Notes under the pieces: model-generated
What the model saw: only the letters and a program-made list of their open reading frames with translations
Told to the model about the DNA's origin: nothing
Database searches by the model: none
Source: Bradyrhizobium japonicum USDA 6
GTDB lineage: Bacteria > Pseudomonadota > Alphaproteobacteria > Rhizobiales > Xanthobacteraceae
Assembly (NCBI RefSeq): GCF_000284375.1
Contig: NC_017249.1
Span: forward strand, 1,054,001-1,118,000
Reading direction: 5' to 3'
DNA length: 64,000 bases
Part shown: piece by piece, positions 6,359-13,043 of the stretch
Layout: every line of letters begins with the position of its first letter
How positions within the stretch are numbered: the first letter of the stretch is position 1
Program-made: the position numbers and the translations under genes

Positions 6359-7351
6359 TCAGTAACGCAGCAGGCGCAGCTTGTAGGCGTAGTGATAGGC
6401 CAACTGCCTCGCGAGATAGGGAGCGATGGCGCGCCGGATCTGCATCTGCGTCGGATCGAAGCCGAGAACACGGCGCCGCAGGATGCCCATCTCCCTGACG
6501 CCGAGCGCGTAGGTCGAAGCCGTCTTCTGTGCATCGTGGATGCGGAAGCAGGCGAGAAATCGCGGCAGGCGCACGAACTTGCATTCCGCGGCTTGCGCCC
6601 GCAGGATGAAATCCCAGTCCATCGCGTAGTGGAAGCTCTCGTCGATCGGCCCGATCCTGTCCCACACGCGCTTGCGCCAGAACATCGTCTCCTGGGGGAT
6701 GTAGTCGGCATACTGCAAAGCCTTGCCGTCATGGGGCGGCAGCACGGCGCGTCCGACCTCGAGCCCCTCGCGGTCGACGAAGACGCGATGGCCGTAGACG
6801 ACGTCGACATTGGGATGCGACATGAAGTAGTCGGCGACATAGGCGAGCGCTCCAGGAAGCAGCATGTCATCACTGTTGAGATAGGCCATGATCTCGCAAT
6901 CGGCACCGGCGAAGCCGAGATTGATGGCGTTCGACTGCCCCTTGTCCGGCTCGCTCGTCCAGCTGATGCCCTCGCCTCGGCTCTTCAAGAGATCGAGCGT
7001 GCCGTCGATCGAGGCGCCGTCCTGCACGTGATAGGTCAGCTTCGGATAGTTCTGGCTGACGATGCTCTCGATCGTGGCGTCGAGATATTGCGCATGATTG
7101 TAGCTCGGCGTGACCATCGTGATCCGCGGCGCATTCGCCGGGATCGCAGGCGCGGGCGGGAAGGCAGTCAGGTTGAGCAGGCGCGGCGGATATTGCTCGA
7201 AGGTCCACATCGGCGGGCGTCGCCAGAGGCTCCGCAGCGAGGATCGTCTCTGTCCGGCAGCAATGAGGTCCTGATTCCGTTCCAGGAGCGCCACACGATT
7301 TTCGAGTTGCTCCAGCCGCTGTTCGAGGCGCTGCCTGAACTCGTCGTCCAT
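6359..7351 (-). CDS. Family 2 glycosyltransferase
   Basis: 330-residue cytoplasmic glycosyltransferase that moves a sugar from a nucleotide-sugar donor to a glycan or protein acceptor. Residues 1-40 are a charged heptad-like helix (RQRLEQRLEQLENRVALLE), probably a short coiled coil. The GT-A fold begins near residue 92 (ITMVTPSYNHAQYLDATIES), with the donor/metal motif NSDD (about residue 160) and the later acidic motif MDWDFILR (about 243). No membrane segment is visible. It lies 152 bases downstream of the sortase gene on the same strand, and a second glycosyltransferase lies at 11553, so it may belong to a surface-modification region; donor and acceptor are not predictable. Confidence 0.87.
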   Translation of the reverse strand: MDDEFRQRLEQRLEQLENRVALLERNQDLIAAGQRRSSLRSLWRRPPMWTFEQYPPRLLNLTAFPPAPAIPANAPRITMVTPSYNHAQYLDATIESIVSQNYPKLTYHVQDGASIDGTLDLLKSRGEGISWTSEPDKGQSNAINLGFAGADCEIMAYLNSDDMLLPGALAYVADYFMSHPNVDVVYGHRVFVDREGLEVGRAVLPPHDGKALQYADYIPQETMFWRKRVWDRIGPIDESFHYAMDWDFILRAQAAECKFVRLPRFLACFRIHDAQKTASTYALGVREMGILRRRVLGFDPTQMQIRRAIAPYLARQLAYHYAYKLRLLRY

Positions 7352-7503: not shown

Positions 7504-8073
7504 CTATTCACCTGTCTCGATCAAGGTGGCATGCAGGACGTAGCGCTCGGGTCCGGGTGTGACGGCGTCAAAGGGCCAGCAGGTTGTGAGCACCAGTTCG
7601 ACATCTTGCGCCGCGGGATCGATGCCGGACTCATCGAAGCGAACCACAGCGGAGGAATCCGCTCGATAGCGAAAGTGCTTTCCGTCACGGCGTGTGACAT
7701 CGATTACGTCGCCAATGGCGACATTCCGCAGGAAGCGGAAATGTGTATCGCGGTGCGCAGCATATACCGCAATGCCGCGCTCGCCGGCATCAGCCGTTCG
7801 GTGGATATGGCCGGGTCCGAAAGCGAGGGCCTGGCCGCTGGTACCTTCCAGCACAATCGCGCTGGCGCCGATCCGCTTCACCTCGATCCGTGCGACCGGC
7901 CAGGTGTCGGCCCATGACCATGGCTTGACCACACCGCCGGTCGTAACGCTCCTGTCGAACGCGCGCTCCAGCAGCACCTGGGCGAGCCATGCCTTGGCAT
8001 GAATGTAGGCGCCGTCGCCGAACAGGACAGTACCGATCAAAGCCAAAACCAGAGGCGAGATGAGGCGGGGCAT
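7504..8073 (-). CDS. Gram-negative class sortase (marine proteobacterial sortase type)
   Basis: 189-residue transpeptidase that should cleave a sorting signal on a membrane-anchored substrate and join it to an acceptor at the envelope. An N-terminal hydrophobic helix (residues 3-20) anchors it. The sortase catalytic set is visible: His107 in YAAHRDTHF, Cys165 in LVLTTCWPF and Arg177 in PGPERYVL, in the order and spacing of sortases. I chose the ATG at 8073, preceded by GGAGACC, because the longer frame (to 8286) runs back into a palindromic repeat. The next gene upstream encodes a VIT/VWA protein with a C-terminal sorting signal, the arrangement known for this family (TIGR03784 with TIGR03788). 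A strong terminator between the two suggests the sortase has its own promoter. Confidence 0.9.
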   Translation of the reverse strand: MPRLISPLVLALIGTVLFGDGAYIHAKAWLAQVLLERAFDRSVTTGGVVKPWSWADTWPVARIEVKRIGASAIVLEGTSGQALAFGPGHIHRTADAGERGIAVYAAHRDTHFRFLRNVAIGDVIDVTRRDGKHFRYRADSSAVVRFDESGIDPAAQDVELVLTTCWPFDAVTPGPERYVLHATLIETGE

Positions 8074-8085
8074 GGTCTCCACATT

Positions 8086-8202
8086 CGTCGTTGCGAGCCA
8101 CCGGGTCCGCGCAAAGCGCGGCCCGATGACAGGCTCCGCGAAGCAATCCAGAGTCTTTCCGCGGAGGCAGTCTGGATTGCTTCGCTGCGCTCGCAATGAC
8201 GG
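8086..8202. repeat. Intergenic palindromic repeat, family B
   Basis: Begins tcgttgcgagcca and ends gctcgcaatgac, with internal arms gcgaagcaatccag and tctggattgcttcgc. Two further copies lie at 21291-21375 and 62855-62940. It fills nearly all the space between the sortase start and the terminator of the VIT/VWA gene. This copy has an extra inner segment (about positions 8098-8135) compared with the other two. Confidence 0.8.
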
Positions 8203-8206
8203 CTGA

Positions 8207-8254
8207 TAAAAAGGCGCGCGCGGCCGTTGGTATGGGACGGGCAGCCGCGCGCGC
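8207..8254 (-). terminator. Rho-independent terminator after the VIT/VWA gene
   Basis: Perfect 11-base-pair stem: gcgcgcgcggc at 8214-8224 pairs with gccgcgcgcgc at 8244-8254, with a loop of 19 bases. Read on the minus strand the stem is followed directly by C and then TTTTT (8212-8208). It lies 29 bases past the stop codon of the VIT/VWA gene and 134 bases before the sortase start codon. Confidence 0.8.
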
Positions 8255-8282
8255 TGACAGAGGAGTTCGGGGGGCTCCTCTC

Positions 8283-10547
8283 TCAAGCGGCGTCGGTGAG
8301 CAAGGGCCGACGCCGGTTGAACACGAACAGGATCAAGGCGAGGACGATCAGGATGAAGCCTGCGATCATCTTGAGCTCGGCCGAGGTCGCGGTCTTTGGC
8401 AGGCGGATCGCATCCGGCGCTGCGGGCGTCGGCCGCTTCGTCGCCGGCTGGTTGCGCGCATCTGCATGACGTTCGCGCAACTGTGTGGGCGTCAGATGCA
8501 GCCGCTCGCCAAAAACCTTCTCGAAATCCCAGCCGGCCGGCAGGTTGAGCGGCAGCTCGCTGAGCTTGAGCGGCGCGCCCTCGGGGCGGCTCGGCGTCTT
8601 GTCGACCGCGACGAGGCTGGTCAACCGCGTGACGATCTGGTGGTCGAGCGCCAGCGTCAGGATCGCCTTGTCGGAGTCTTCGGGCGTCATCTCACGCATG
8701 GTACGCGCCACCTCGGCGTCGCCGATCTTGCGCTTGGCCCAGAGTTTTGACAGGCCCTTGCCTTCGGCGGCGTTTTGCAGCGGCAGCGTCACCGACCACG
8801 GGCGGTCGCCGACGCGTCCCTTGATCTCGAGCGAGCCGGCGAGCTTGTCGAGCTTTGCCGCCAGCACCAGCGGCTCGTCGCGATAGACGTCGGGAATGAT
8901 CGCCGGCGTGACGTCGGCTTTGGCTTCGGAGAATTTTGCACTGAGGCCGGTCACTGCCGGGTTCTCGAGCTTGGCGAACAGGCCGCGCATGCGCTCCTCG
9001 ACCTGTTCGACGGAGCCGATATGGGTGAAGGCGCCGCGGCCGAGCTCGGCGGCGCGCGTCATCAGATAGGTGTTGGGCGCGGATCCGATGCCGACCATGA
9101 ACACGCGCGAGCGGCCCCGCATCGCTGTGATCGTTTCGAACAATTGCTGCTCGTTGCCGACCGCACCATCGGTCAGGAACACCACCTGGCGCACCATGCT
9201 GGTGTCGCCAGCCTTGTCGGTCAGCGCCGCGCGCATCGCCGGCACCATCTCGGTGCCGCCGCGGGCCTGCAAGGCACTGACGAACGAAGTGGCTTCACCG
9301 ACATGCGTGGCGTCGGCCGGCACGGAGGCCGGGAAGAGCACGTCCATGGTGTCGTCGAAGCGGATGACGTTGAAGCGGTCGTTGGGTTGAAGGCGGGATA
9401 GGGCGTAAGTCAGGCTGGCCTTGGCCTGAACGATCGACGTACCGCCCATCGAGCCCGAATTGTCGATGACGAACACCACCTCGCGCGGCAGCGGCTTTTG
9501 CGTCGTCTGCTCGGCACTGGGCGGGGTGACGAAGGCGAGCAAATAATCGGCATCGCCGACACGCTCGCGGAACAGGCCAACCGACGGTGCCTTGTCCGCG
9601 GCCGGTTTCCAGGTCAACTCGAAATCGCGGTCGGCGGCCACCGCGCCGTCAGCGAGCGTGACGATTCGCGTCGCATTGTCCGGGCTCTCGACCTTGACAT
9701 TATGGTGGTGACTCCTGACCTCGCCGAGCGCGAAGCCTGCCTTCAGGCGCATCGTGATGCTGGTCGGATTGACTGGCGCGTTCCTTGCGGGATCCAGCAC
9801 CGGCGGCGAGATACGGTCGCGATCCGGCACCGGCTCTGAATTGCTTGCGCCCCAGCCCGAGCCGTCCTTGCGGAAGTCGACGCTCTGCACGATCGGCGCC
9901 GGATTGTAGCGCGGCCCGACCACCAGCGGCAGCCGCAGCGAATATTCATTGCCGGATTGATGCACCGGCTCCTGGTATTCGATCTGCACCAGCACGGTTT
10001 CGCCGGGGCCGATATTGGCGACCGAATTGGTGAAGATGTTCGGCCGCTCCTGCTCGGTGAGCGCGGCCTTCTGGCCGGCGCGGCGTGCCTGCTCGTAGAT
10101 CACGCGTGCCTGCTGCCGCTCCTTGATGTCGCCGATGATGACGCGGTCGCCGACCACCATCTTCAGCGTGTCGACGGCGCCGCCGGCGGGAAGCGGATAA
10201 ACGTAGGTCGCCTCGACCCAGTCCTTGGTCGGATTGCGGAAGGCCTGGGTGACGCGGGCGCGCAGCGTCGGGCCTGACACCGTGATGTCGACGTCGATGC
10301 CGAGGCGGATCGCCTCCGTGTAGGCGCCGTCCTCCTTCAGGAGAAGGGTGCCGGATTTGGCATCGCCGGGCTGGAGCAGGCTGGCCTGCTCCGTCGTCGC
10401 CGACCATCCGGGCTCAAAACTCACGAGCAGGGCCACGAAGGCGACCAGCATCACCGCGATGCCCTGCACCAGAAGAAACAATCCGAGCTTGATCAGCCGG
10501 CCCAGCATGGGGTGCTCGTCGCCGTCGGCTGTGTCGTAGCTATCCAT
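8283..10547 (-). CDS. VIT and VWA domain protein, sortase substrate
   Basis: 754-residue envelope protein. An N-terminal membrane helix (about 19-43) is followed by a VIT domain (about 75-200, with ATYVYPLPAGGAVD), a VWA domain (about 355-530) with an intact MIDAS motif DNSGS at 362-366, and a Ser/Pro/Ala-rich tail. The C-terminus is a sorting signal: LPKTA at 716-720 (bases 8388-8402), a hydrophobic stretch (MIAGFILIVLALILFVF) and a basic NRRR end. This is the architecture of the marine proteobacterial sortase target family, usually the only sortase substrate in its genome. The fifth motif residue is Ala, not the classical Gly. I chose the ATG at 10547, preceded by GGGAGCAGG; the frame is open much further (to 11456), but that part overlaps the divergent regulator gene and is antisense to it. 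Confidence 0.9.
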   Translation of the reverse strand: MDSYDTADGDEHPMLGRLIKLGLFLLVQGIAVMLVAFVALLVSFEPGWSATTEQASLLQPGDAKSGTLLLKEDGAYTEAIRLGIDVDITVSGPTLRARVTQAFRNPTKDWVEATYVYPLPAGGAVDTLKMVVGDRVIIGDIKERQQARVIYEQARRAGQKAALTEQERPNIFTNSVANIGPGETVLVQIEYQEPVHQSGNEYSLRLPLVVGPRYNPAPIVQSVDFRKDGSGWGASNSEPVPDRDRISPPVLDPARNAPVNPTSITMRLKAGFALGEVRSHHHNVKVESPDNATRIVTLADGAVAADRDFELTWKPAADKAPSVGLFRERVGDADYLLAFVTPPSAEQTTQKPLPREVVFVIDNSGSMGGTSIVQAKASLTYALSRLQPNDRFNVIRFDDTMDVLFPASVPADATHVGEATSFVSALQARGGTEMVPAMRAALTDKAGDTSMVRQVVFLTDGAVGNEQQLFETITAMRGRSRVFMVGIGSAPNTYLMTRAAELGRGAFTHIGSVEQVEERMRGLFAKLENPAVTGLSAKFSEAKADVTPAIIPDVYRDEPLVLAAKLDKLAGSLEIKGRVGDRPWSVTLPLQNAAEGKGLSKLWAKRKIGDAEVARTMREMTPEDSDKAILTLALDHQIVTRLTSLVAVDKTPSRPEGAPLKLSELPLNLPAGWDFEKVFGERLHLTPTQLRERHADARNQPATKRPTPAAPDAIRLPKTATSAELKMIAGFILIVLALILFVFNRRRPLLTDAA

Positions 10548-10733
10548 TTCGCCTGCTCCCGAAGGGTGTTTGCTGGCTCGGAGCATCCGTCGGGAGCGCC
10601 TGAATGCGCGAGCAGAATGATCGGCAATGTTCCGCCGCGGCCGGCCCGGCGGGCCGCGGCCGGGATGGCCATGTACGGTTTTGTGCTGGTTTGTCCGCCC
10701 TGCTAGACTGGCGTCCGTGGAGCAGGGTTGACG
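10548..10733. promoter_or_regulatory. Divergent promoter region, VIT/VWA gene and XRE regulator
   Basis: 186 bases separate the two divergent start codons, so promoters for both must lie here. An inverted GC element (ccgcggccggcccggcgggccgcggcc, 10633-10659) is visible and could be an operator or a structured leader. I see no convincing -35/-10 pair. Confidence 0.45.
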
Positions 10734-11504
10734 ATGCAGACGCAGGATAAAGTCACCGACAGGCAGCTTTCGGACGAGCAGAGCCGCGAGATCGCGGAGA
10801 CCATTCGCGAGGAGCTCGCCAGGCGCCGGATTTCCCGGCAGGCGTTGGCCGAGCAGGCCAAGCTCAGCCTCTCGACGCTGGAGAAGGTGCTCGGTGGCCG
10901 CCGGCCGTTCACGCTGGCAACGACCGTGCGGCTGGAGCAGGCGCTGGGCGTCTCCTTGCGCAAAAGCGCCGCCTTGGTGACGCCTCCGGCCGCAAACGAT
11001 GTCGCGCCCGACAGCCTCGGCTCGTATGCGCATCGCGCGGTGACCTGGCTCGAGGACGTCTACATCACGCTGCGGCCGTCCTTCGGCGCCAAGGATGCGA
11101 TCTTCGCCTATCGCACCGAGATCGTCTGGGAGCCGAAGGTGTCTTCGCTGGTGTTCCGCGAGGGCGAGCGGACCGATGCCGCCTATGAGCACACCGGCGA
11201 GGTTGCGGTGCCGCATCAGTCCGGCTTCATCTATCTCGTCATCATCAAGCACGGCCAGCATCGCGTGATCACGGTGTCGCGGCCGACGGTTGCCGGCGAG
11301 ATGTACGGCATCATCTCGACGCTCCGCGCCGGACCCGGCTCGCAACTGACACCGATCGCGGCGCCGATCGCCTATGTGCCGCTCCGCAACGTCGCGAAGC
11401 CGTCGCTGGGACGGGTCGGCCCCGACGACGCCAACCACGCATTGTATGGAAAGCATCTGCGCCGCACGGTGGAAGAATCGTTCGCGTTGTTTCTGTCGGT
11501 ATAG
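10734..11504 (+). CDS. XRE-family helix-turn-helix regulator with uncharacterised C-terminal domain
   Basis: 256-residue DNA-binding protein. Residues about 18-75 form an XRE/Cro-type helix-turn-helix (ELARRRISRQALAEQAKLSL, then STLEKVLGGRRP). The remaining ~170 residues form a compact beta-rich domain (LEDVYITLRPSFGAKDAIFA; VPHQSGFIYLVIIKHGQHRV) that I do not recognise and that might sense a ligand or partner. The ATG at 10734 follows GGAGCAGG; a TTG six bases earlier is also in frame. It is divergent from the VIT/VWA gene, which makes it a candidate regulator of the sortase system, but this is positional inference only. The glycosyltransferase gene starts 48 bases after its stop codon, so the two may be co-transcribed. 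Confidence 0.8.
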   Translation: MQTQDKVTDRQLSDEQSREIAETIREELARRRISRQALAEQAKLSLSTLEKVLGGRRPFTLATTVRLEQALGVSLRKSAALVTPPAANDVAPDSLGSYAHRAVTWLEDVYITLRPSFGAKDAIFAYRTEIVWEPKVSSLVFREGERTDAAYEHTGEVAVPHQSGFIYLVIIKHGQHRVITVSRPTVAGEMYGIISTLRAGPGSQLTPIAAPIAYVPLRNVAKPSLGRVGPDDANHALYGKHLRRTVEESFALFLSV

Positions 11505-11552: not shown

Positions 11553-13043
11553 ATGCAGGACGTGCCCGCACCATACGGCGGTGAATCTCCGCTGTTCTCC
11601 ATCATCATCCCGCTGGAACATCACCGCGGGCAGTGGGAGCTGTCCTGGCTCGGCTGGACGTCGCAGACCGCCGACAAATCGCTCTACGAAATCATCCTGG
11701 TGGTGCCGCCTGATTTCAAGGCCCTCAACGAGCTGAAGGCGCTGGCCGGCGGCAAAGCGCGCCTCGAATTCACCAATTCGAACCATGACATCGGGCTCTG
11801 CGCCTTCGGCGCCGCCAAGGCCCGCGGCAAATATCTGTTCTTCACAGAGTCGCATTGCCGGCCCGAGCCTGACGTGATGGAGGCCTGCATCCGCGCGATC
11901 GGCGCTCGTCCCGACTGGGCCGGGTTCTCCTGCCAGTCGGTGCCGATCTGCCATAACCGGCTGTCCGTGGCCGAGGCCGCCATGTACCAGGACGACATCG
12001 AGTTCGGCATGATGCAGCATCCCTGGCGCAAGGTGCTGGACCAGTGCTTCGTGACACGGCGCGACGTCTATTGGGAATGCGGCGGCCTGCGCGAGGAGCT
12101 CGGCCATTTCGCCGAATGGGTGCTCGCCGCCGCGTATCACGCGAGGGGCCATACGATCGGCTATCTCGAGGAGGCGCGCTTCCATCATTACTATATCGGC
12201 GAAATAGGCGAGCTGAAGACATTCACACTCGATTTCGTGCGGGGCGAGATCCGCTATCTCAGCGAGGCGCGCAACGATCCCGGCAGCGAGCTGCTCGACA
12301 TTCCGATCGAATGGAGCAGCCGCGGCAATTTCAACGTCGCGCTGGCGCGCAGCGCTTTTGGTGCACGGATGCGCGCCGGCGGCGTGACCGGGGAAGGCCT
12401 GCAGGCGATCGGGCGTTGGGGCGCGATCGCACTGGCCGGCGACCGCCTTGCGCTTGGTCTTGCACGTTTGTCGGCAGGCTATGCGTGCTGCGGCCTGACC
12501 CTGCTCGCCATGAGCGGCTCTCGCGGCAGCATCGCGCGCGGGCTGAAGCGTTATATCGCCGCGCTGATCCACTATCAGCGCCTCTATTGTATCCGTGGCA
12601 TTCGGGGGAGCCTCGGCGGAGCTGCGCAGAGTCTCGGCGATCAGATGGTCGCACAGGCCGGCTTCCATGCCTGGGAGGTCTGGCAGGGCCGCAGCTTCCG
12701 CTGGAGCGAGCCGGAAGCGGCCGTGCGGATCGAGGCGCCGCCGGGGCGCGCCATCATTCGCATCGCGTCGCCGGAGATTCGTGGGCCGCTGGATCGGATC
12801 GGCGTGCAATTCTATCTCGACGGCGTGCGCGTTGCGGATGCCGCGACCGCGATCGACGCGGGTGCCTTCGTTCTTCAGCTCGATCTGCCGCCATCGGGCG
12901 GGGCGATCCTGGCATGGGCATGTCCGCGCTTTGCGGCCATCGATGACCCGCGCCGGCTCGGCCTGCCGGTCGCGGGGATCGACGTCAGTGCAGGCGAGGA
13001 CGTCAACTGCACGTCTCCGCCCGTTGCTGCGATGCGTGGCTAG
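11553..13043 (+). CDS. GT2-like glycosyltransferase with C-terminal extension
   Basis: 496-residue protein. The N-terminal ~240 residues are a GT-A glycosyltransferase domain: SIIIPLEHHRGQWELSW at the start of the fold, FFTESHCRPEPDVM at the position of the DxD region (here ESH, so metal binding may differ), and the acceptor region DVYWECGGLREELGHFAEW. Residues about 310-350 are helical and partly hydrophobic. From about 370 there is an unrecognised beta-rich domain of ~120 residues (AIIRIASPEIRGPLDRIGVQ) that may bind carbohydrate. It follows the XRE regulator by 48 bases. Its stop codon (13041-13043) overlaps the stop of the convergent binding-protein gene by four bases. Confidence 0.75.
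   Translation: MQDVPAPYGGESPLFSIIIPLEHHRGQWELSWLGWTSQTADKSLYEIILVVPPDFKALNELKALAGGKARLEFTNSNHDIGLCAFGAAKARGKYLFFTESHCRPEPDVMEACIRAIGARPDWAGFSCQSVPICHNRLSVAEAAMYQDDIEFGMMQHPWRKVLDQCFVTRRDVYWECGGLREELGHFAEWVLAAAYHARGHTIGYLEEARFHHYYIGEIGELKTFTLDFVRGEIRYLSEARNDPGSELLDIPIEWSSRGNFNVALARSAFGARMRAGGVTGEGLQAIGRWGAIALAGDRLALGLARLSAGYACCGLTLLAMSGSRGSIARGLKRYIAALIHYQRLYCIRGIRGSLGGAAQSLGDQMVAQAGFHAWEVWQGRSFRWSEPEAAVRIEAPPGRAIIRIASPEIRGPLDRIGVQFYLDGVRVADAATAIDAGAFVLQLDLPPSGGAILAWACPRFAAIDDPRRLGLPVAGIDVSAGEDVNCTSPPVAAMRG

Follow-up and report, generated by a model that had tools for sequence, protein, structure and literature searches.

A class GN sortase and a lone VIT/VWA protein with an LPKTA signal in Bradyrhizobium japonicum

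A 64,000-nucleotide stretch of the Bradyrhizobium japonicum USDA 6 genome (contig NC_017249.1, positions 1,054,001 to 1,118,000), referred to here as the window, carries two adjacent genes on the minus strand, which encode a putative sortase substrate with VIT and VWA domains and, downstream of it, a class GN sortase (Table 1). As judged from its sequence, the pair is real, conserved and probably working, and belongs to a named family with a layout specific to Bradyrhizobium. This type of pair is itself known, since public records already name Bradyrhizobium proteins as class GN sortase or its target, and proteins of Rhizobium, Sinorhizobium and Ensifer as class GN sortase. The original prediction, made from the letters of the window, had placed both genes correctly.

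Table 1. Features of the sortase locus, in coordinates of the window
Feature	Position	Strand	Basis
Class GN sortase, 189 amino acids, one N-terminal membrane helix	7504..8073	-	TIGR03784, conserved catalytic residues, AlphaFold2 and Foldseek
Sortase catalytic codons	His107 7753-7755; Cys165 7579-7581; Arg177 7543-7545	-	
Terminator-like hairpin between substrate and sortase genes, 13-pair outer stem followed by T5	8208..8254	-	Fold, genus comparison
VIT/VWA sortase substrate, 754 amino acids	8283..10547	-	TIGR03788, Pfam, Foldseek
Sorting signal: LPKTA (codons 8388-8402), hydrophobic helix, NRRR	8286..8402	-	Sequence, NF058670, family alignment
MIDAS metal-site motif D362-N-S364-G-S366 of VWA	9450..9464	-	Alignment
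Substrate N-terminal membrane helix or export signal, residues 13-43	10419..10511	-	Helix predicted in AlphaFold2 model
Conserved 23-bp element, divergent intergenic region	10608..10630	.	Alignment of 81 intergenic regions; promoter or operator role inferred
Second conserved element beside regulator start	10676..10706	.	Same 81-region alignment; role inferred
Divergent XRE-type helix-turn-helix (HTH) regulator gene	10728..11504	+	Weak HTH matches, none over cut-off

Sortase, substrate and sorting signal

The sortase scores 206.8 bits against TIGR03784, over the NCBIfam cut-off of 158.25, and matches the Pfam sortase family. The set of catalytic His, Cys and Arg that had been read in it is complete, with His107, Cys165 and Arg177 invariant across an alignment of class GN sortases (38/38). 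The probable start is the ATG that opens the reading frame at 7504-8073, and a longer TTG-initiated frame (7504-8286) runs into the stop of the substrate. An AlphaFold2 model of the enzyme reached a mean pLDDT of 91.8, and the 50 structural matches that Foldseek listed for it are all sortases. Within the 9.2-Mb genome of the window, this gene is the single match to the class GN model at E <= 0.001. By sequence-profile search, the nearest solved structure is 2ln7, the class D sortase SrtD of Bacillus anthracis (E 5.3e-23; next 6.8e-14), an enzyme named SrtC in a review (PMC3297441). The best NCBIfam match outside class GN is also class D, at 82.8 bits; the class D models gave 81.4 and 82.8 bits, under the cut-offs of NF033746 (165) and NF058671 (140).

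The substrate scores 809.1 bits against TIGR03788 (cut-off 551.65), and the pairing of TIGR03784 with TIGR03788 that had been named on the basis of family knowledge is thereby borne out, with both members over cut-off and in adjacent genes. Pfam places a VIT domain at residues 84-191 and a VWA domain at residues 356-506, the MIDAS of which is intact, with D362, S364, S366, T432 and D460 invariant in all 36 aligned proteins. The AlphaFold2 model has a mean pLDDT of 77.9, the linker before the tail being of low confidence, and its best Foldseek match is inter-alpha-inhibitor heavy chain 1 (ITIH1, 6fpy; E 2.9e-38, 658 alignment columns), with TM scores of 0.47/0.57 and 16% identity. Profile matches were, in order, PARP4, ITIH4 and ITIH1. 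The start of a longer frame of 1057 amino acids was rejected, as such a frame would lie antisense to the conserved regulator gene and extend across the intergenic region, and also on the length of homologues, which is 741-766 amino acids in the 120 public homologues listed.

The tail of the substrate reads RLPKTATSAELKMIAGFILIVLALILFVFNRRRPLLTDAA, where LPKTA, a hydrophobic stretch and NRRR can be read directly, as had been reported. The LPxTATN signal model NF058670 (cut-off 32 bits) covers residues 716-747 with an under-cut-off score of 22.9 bits. In a six-frame search of the whole genome with the same model, this tail was the best match (E 1.1e-4, 26.6 bits, likewise under the cut-off) and the next match reached only E 0.78, so that the earlier description of a lone substrate is supported at the sensitivity of the LPxTATN model, other signal models not having been searched.

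The signal was then compared across 80 named Bradyrhizobium loci, which are the best 80 of 218 and include two on one contig, metagenome bins, two bins without a genus assignment and one record titled Frankia. It is readable in 79 of the 80, the exception (L063) appearing to be frame-shifted upstream of it, and takes the forms LPKTAT (73), LPRTAT (4), LPKTAS (1) and LPKTGT (1). Outside the genus, 62 of 65 targets are readable; the count leaves out L234 (cut by a contig end), L245 (apparently out of frame) and L247 (outside the pattern, tail LATAT), as well as the Bradyrhizobium locus L063, while the signal of L173 was set by eye to FAQTAT (machine pick APAGSV). Ala follows the predicted cleavage site, at position P1', in 78/79 Bradyrhizobium signals and in 51/62 outside the genus, where Ser (9) and Gly (2) make up the remainder, and position P1 of these 62 is occupied by Thr (42), Gly (19) or Ser (1). 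Ala in the fifth position is a rule of the family, and not the departure from a classical signal that had been supposed. The LPXTG wording used for the target (PMC3237569) does not describe the LPKTA tail, nor does it define the family, because Gly is so rare in fifth position (1/79 and 2/62); the family signal is better written xPx(T/G)(A/S)(T). A preference for Ala has also been described in B. anthracis, where the class D sortase is reported to cleave LPNTA between Thr and Ala with meso-diaminopimelate (m-Dpm) of the wall as the nucleophile (PMC3297441), the LPNTA preference being mentioned in further sources (PMC3208642, PMC4498605).

The 19 targets with Gly for Thr at P1 (LPQGAT, LPQGST and the like) are all alphaproteobacterial (L162, L210, L214, L215, L217-L225, L227, L228, L232, L236, L243 and L244). 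A sortase tree and a residue comparison were made with 70 rows, each with a sortase match, a readable motif and a domain of 140 residues or more; the 80 named loci contributed just 9 of these rows. On this tree, P1 Gly requires at least nine changes by parsimony, of which three are forced by well-supported branches, with the bootstrap unsettled and several long branches flagged. Sortase residue 83 is Leu in 47/50 P1-Thr rows and Met in 14/19 P1-Gly rows, a comparison uncorrected for kinship and the third-ranked column of an all-column scan. A claim to a new motif was lowered here, as LPxGA is already listed as an alternative anchor motif of Gram-positive bacteria (PMC8286594).

Distribution, locus layout and exchange of the anchoring enzyme

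Three genome samples were searched, covering the phylum (n=398), the class of the window (n=385) and Bradyrhizobium (n=195). In the phylum sample, the target is over cut-off in 37/398 genomes, and exactly these 37 also match the sortase model at E <= 1e-10, 33 of them above its cut-off; six more genomes have an under-cut-off target match (E <= 1e-60), none with a sortase match. In the class sample, 41/385 genomes have the target over cut-off. The 42 class-sample loci, drawn from these 41 genomes and four under-cut-off matches less three carriers, with at most 5 kb per flank, comprise 36 with a sortase, three cut by a contig end and three with an exosortase instead. The pair is nearly core in Bradyrhizobium, with target and sortase over cut-off in 165/195 and 170/195 genomes. 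A strong target match (E < 1e-100) occurs in 171/195, and 169 of these have a sortase (E <= 1e-10); in the other two the target match starts at contig base 75 (G042) or the genome is 83% complete (G136). Sortase-only genomes are G097 (75% complete) and G093 and G140, both with partial sortase matches. At the named loci the sortase is present in 78/80, and L057 and L068 end within 172 bases of the target match.

These counts bear on two earlier statements. Class GN sortases have been stated to be limited to halotolerant proteobacteria (PMC10581121), which disagrees with the Bradyrhizobium counts and with the names given to proteins of Rhizobium, Sinorhizobium and Ensifer. The remark in the original prediction that such pairs are mostly described from marine species is likewise out of date, given the 165 Bradyrhizobium genomes and the other rhizobial genera. 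The pair can also be lost, as two genomes, G140 (target and sortase pieces, L180) and G083 (target pieces, L181), keep only deletion remnants next to a regulator gene that looks intact. Two copies of the target locus (L038 and L039) lie about 330 kb apart in opposite orientation on one Bradyrhizobium contig, either real or an effect of assembly, and G011 has two equal-scoring pairs at a like distance. The record titled Frankia sp. RB7 (L058) holds a Bradyrhizobium-type locus with 89% protein identity and is probably mislabelled or a mixed assembly.

The layout in Bradyrhizobium is marked by the terminator-like hairpin between the two genes and by the divergent regulator. The fold of 8196-8282 has a z of -5.1, and a hairpin of <= -20 kcal/mol with its end no more than 3 bases from a T4+ run was found in 66/78 Bradyrhizobium loci, as compared with 36/780 dinucleotide shuffles; a simple scan, confined to loops of <= 8, did not report the hairpin at 8208-8254. 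In 22/27 carriers of the phylum sample outside Bradyrhizobium, the distance from substrate to sortase domain is <= 60 bases. The gap also contains a REP-like palindromic repeat (8080-8199), a 29-base half of which has 175 copies in the genome (<= 3 mismatches; reversed-pattern control 0), and repeat-like words occur in the gap of 30/78 Bradyrhizobium loci.

The regulator gene stands beside the target, and divergent from it, in 80/80 named loci. Outside its N-terminal HTH part, the protein matches nothing in Pfam or NCBIfam at E <= 0.01. Linked homologues in other arrangements are seen outside the genus, at L157, L160 and L172 and 8 kb off in G335; the genomes concerned are G222, G460 and G335, from a single other family of the order, and G445, from a different family of the class. 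No linked homologue was seen at the 42 class-sample loci within 5 kb per side, nor at the other phylum loci, including the Rhizobium-like L154-L156. Among 21 pair-poor Bradyrhizobium genomes tested, only G083 and G140 have a regulator match below 1e-100; G100 has a partial match at a contig start (2.2e-42), and those of G020, G075, G143 and G093 are weaker. The XRE-type regulator probably controls the pair in Bradyrhizobium.

Beyond the regulator, only a coenzyme A (CoA) ligase gene among the tested neighbours is retained at almost all Bradyrhizobium loci. The CoA ligase gene (77/80) and an ABC solute-binding gene (55/80) were set aside as shared neighbours with no functional tie, and the flanking glycosyltransferases (6359-7351 and 11553-13043) were not counted as part of the system, being present at only 30/80 and 26/80 named loci, some of which are cut by contig ends. 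The accessory proteins of marine systems were searched in 43 genomes, 20 of them from the class of the window and 19 of those carriers of the pair. PdsO (TIGR03789) is over cut-off in 10/43, all outside the class, the genome of the window not being among them. The dedicated histidine kinase (TIGR03785, E <= 1e-60) was found in 18/43 genomes and in 0/20 of the class, mostly with the best 20 candidates scored; in the genome of the window 20 of 59 first-look candidates were scored and none matched. The search of 19 alphaproteobacterial carriers thus turned up neither of these accessory proteins.

Homologues lacking a C-terminal signal had been named as grounds against the prediction when the pair was first described, and the relatives without a sortase do not bear this out. 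At nine loci (L148-L153 and L248-L250) a full-length relative of the substrate stands without a sortase, and eight of these relatives end in a different, PEP-CTERM-like tail with an exosortase-family gene adjoining the substrate gene in all eight, which indicates that tail and enzyme change together. L149-L152 have exosortase Q (334.8-369.5 bits, cut-off 270) and exosortase T is found in L148, at 687.3 bits, and in L249, at 611.7 bits (cut-off 250), while the enzymes of L248 and L250 are relatives of the L148 exosortase (E 2.7e-100 and 1.4e-122). The exosortase-linked VIT/VWA proteins score 406.9-461.8 bits against TIGR03788, under its cut-off, and the genomes of L148-L152 gave no class GN sortase match at E <= 1e-10, nor was such an enzyme seen at loci L248-L250. 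The tails are called PEP-CTERM-like because only four of the eight exceed the TIGR02595 cut-off of 16 (L149 17.6, L151 16.9, L248 16.3, L249 24.3); L152 stays under it at 14.2 and L148, L150 and L250 have no match, these four tails being called by eye, and only L249 is over the cut-off of the Pfam PEP-CTERM model. The ninth relative, L153, ends in VDPVTL, a hydrophobic stretch and basic residues, with an exosortase elsewhere in its genome; no sorting-signal model matched this tail, and its VIT region weakly matches the model of the XrtN-system VIT protein. The principle of such a swap is already known, vault-type homologues with GlyGly-CTERM, PEP-CTERM or LPXTG tails and dedicated enzymes having been printed in 2011 (PMC3237569); the cases added here are alphaproteobacterial for L148 and L248-L250, by kinship, and lie elsewhere in the phylum for L149-L152. 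The exchange of exosortase for sortase on one scaffold makes unrelated anchoring enzymes comparable on one kind of substrate.

Proposed tethering mechanism and possible role

The sequences leave little doubt that the two proteins would form a functional sortase-substrate pair, and it is very likely that cleavage would fall between Thr and Ala of LPKTA. The joint change of tail and enzyme in the sortase-less relatives also speaks for a need to process the C-terminus. The VIT/VWA protein would cross the inner membrane by export and stay attached through its C-terminal helix, and the sortase, anchored by its N-terminal helix, would present its active site in the periplasm. As family and motif suggest, Cys165 would cut after the Thr of LPKTA and the Thr acyl group would be passed to an envelope amine, for which meso-diaminopimelate of lipid II or peptidoglycan, with its free side-chain amine, is the likeliest candidate. 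The ITIH-like, metal-binding MIDAS domain would then be covalently fixed in the envelope, where it might serve adhesion or envelope integrity, and the intergenic hairpin would probably keep the enzyme well below the level of the substrate. Bradyrhizobium peptidoglycan contains diaminopimelate. This acceptor, the chances of which are about even, is favoured because the nearest solved relative by sequence (2ln7) has been reported to use m-Dpm (PMC3297441). The overall reading, with one enzyme tethering one protein, is also evenly balanced between holding and failing.

Several points weigh against tethering to peptidoglycan. In agreement with the original prediction, no acceptor for a class GN sortase was found in the open-access literature searched (subscription papers were outside its scope), and the role of class GN sortases in Gram-negative bacteria has been called unknown (PMC10581121). 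The Foldseek order does not follow the sequence search, with class A chains at the head of the matches listed, a class D enzyme of Clostridium perfringens in fifth place and 2ln7 in tenth. That C. perfringens enzyme favours LPQTGS (PMC4498605), so Ala is no mark of all class D sortases. The hairpin could instead mean poor expression of the sortase, and the pair is dispensable, with two Bradyrhizobium genomes holding remnants only. The exosortase and rhombosortase tails on the same scaffold also favour a different acceptor. With the same cleavage, the Thr might be passed to a membrane lipid amine such as phosphatidylethanolamine, which by analogy with rhombosortase substrates would give a C-terminally lipidated envelope or surface protein. 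GlyGly-CTERM tails have been reported on this scaffold (PMC3237569), and the Vibrio cholerae protein VesB, a GlyGly-CTERM substrate of rhombosortase, bears an ethanolamine or glycerophosphoethanolamine adduct (PMC6219818), to which the PEP-CTERM-like swaps with an adjacent exosortase can be added. Lipid is nonetheless the less likely of the two acceptors, as the enzyme is a cysteine sortase and not an intramembrane enzyme, and the solved structure closest to it in sequence belongs to a class D sortase with reported m-Dpm use. Known sortases use peptidoglycan or pilin amines.

It is improbable that the sortase acts as a processing protease, where water would resolve the acyl-enzyme after the same cut and release a soluble periplasmic or secreted VIT/VWA protein. 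The scarcity of conserved neighbours at Bradyrhizobium loci, namely the regulator and the CoA ligase gene only, and the confinement of PdsO, an OmpA-like accessory protein, to genomes outside the class would suit such a role. Sortases are nevertheless transpeptidases with slow hydrolysis, and a linked enzyme is kept in 36/42 class loci, the other six being contig-cut (three) or exosortase-bearing (three). A tail serving as a mere membrane anchor, on which the sortase no longer acts, would suit the genomes with remnants or without the pair, and is very improbable in view of catalytic residues invariant in 38/38, a motif kept in 79/80 loci and a sortase in 78/80. Pilus-like self-polymerisation is not supported, the genome having a single substrate by the LPxTATN model.

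A possible role for the substrate is suggested by data on the Sinorhizobium meliloti homologue SMc01580, which is 80% identical to an Ensifer adhaerens protein termed "marine proteobacterial sortase target"; the same source gives the E. adhaerens gene as up-regulated on days 5-7, and SMc01580 as down-regulated in an S. meliloti study that it cites (PMC6637203). Of 19 regions that an earlier study tested, ChvI bound three, that upstream of SMc01580 among them (PMC3687685), the S. meliloti ChvI consensus being GCC direct repeats (PMC9731502). SMc01580 rises at acid pH (PMC2651895, PMC10659215), is given a value of 1.25 in a tabulated comparison of wild type with a phosphatidylcholine-deficient mutant (PMC8343143) and is listed higher up than the "repressed" section of a Clr table (PMC5498481). 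The gene next in number, smc01581, has been described as targeted directly by ChvI and goes up with the host peptide NCR247 (PMC12486126). From the neighbouring gene number, SMc01581 would be the S. meliloti sortase; the word sortase is absent from the main text of PMC10659215 and PMC12486126, the two sources checked, and S. meliloti is not named among the 120 class GN sortase matches listed in public sources. The linked regulator suggests that control in Bradyrhizobium may differ from that by ChvI. A combined picture can be offered only tentatively, in which an ITIH-like MIDAS protein would be tethered to diaminopimelate peptidoglycan by a class D-like sortase as part of an envelope response to acid and host entry, controlled by ChvI in Sinorhizobium and by the XRE-type regulator in Bradyrhizobium. 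If true, sortase-type anchoring of a protein to peptidoglycan would occur in a Gram-negative bacterium and be used during legume entry.

The pair makes the acceptor testable in rhizobia. This acceptor should be readable by mass spectrometry, because Bradyrhizobium can be cultured and mutated and has one enzyme, one substrate and diaminopimelate peptidoglycan. In the open-access literature, within the scope given above, a search for Bradyrhizobium, von Willebrand and sortase together returned only a Solibacter genome paper. With the pair nearly core in a genus of legume symbionts, joining it to the literature on SMc01580, smc01581 and ChvI provides a mechanism to be tested in symbiosis.

Comparison with known systems

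The pair agrees with the class GN sortase and marine target families (TIGR03784, TIGR03788) in its over-cut-off scores, adjacent genes, lone substrate, VIT and VWA domains and C-terminal signal. In contrast to those systems, it belongs to a soil genus, is linked to an XRE-type regulator, has a hairpin between the genes and carries LPKTA in place of LPXTG; with regard to the marine system with PdsO and a histidine kinase, PdsO is not over cut-off here and the dedicated kinase was not found among the candidates scored. The class D sortases of B. anthracis (SrtC/SrtD, LPNTA) share Ala after the scissile Thr and provide the nearest solved sequence, whereas both enzyme and signal are here under the class D cut-offs, the host is Gram-negative and the structure is nearest to another class. 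The exosortase Q and T systems share a homologous VIT/VWA scaffold, a tripartite tail and a dedicated enzyme encoded next to the substrate, but their enzyme and motif are unrelated to those of the sortase system. A tripartite tail on vault-type homologues is also shared with the rhombosortase/GlyGly-CTERM system (PMC3237569), which differs in its rhomboid-type enzyme and in the lipid-type modification reported (PMC6219818). The combination of VIT and VWA with a MIDAS is common to ITIH1, ITIH4 and PARP4, although the low identity to ITIH1 sets the ITIH chains apart. The C-terminal processing of ITIH chains is also unlike that of a sortase substrate.

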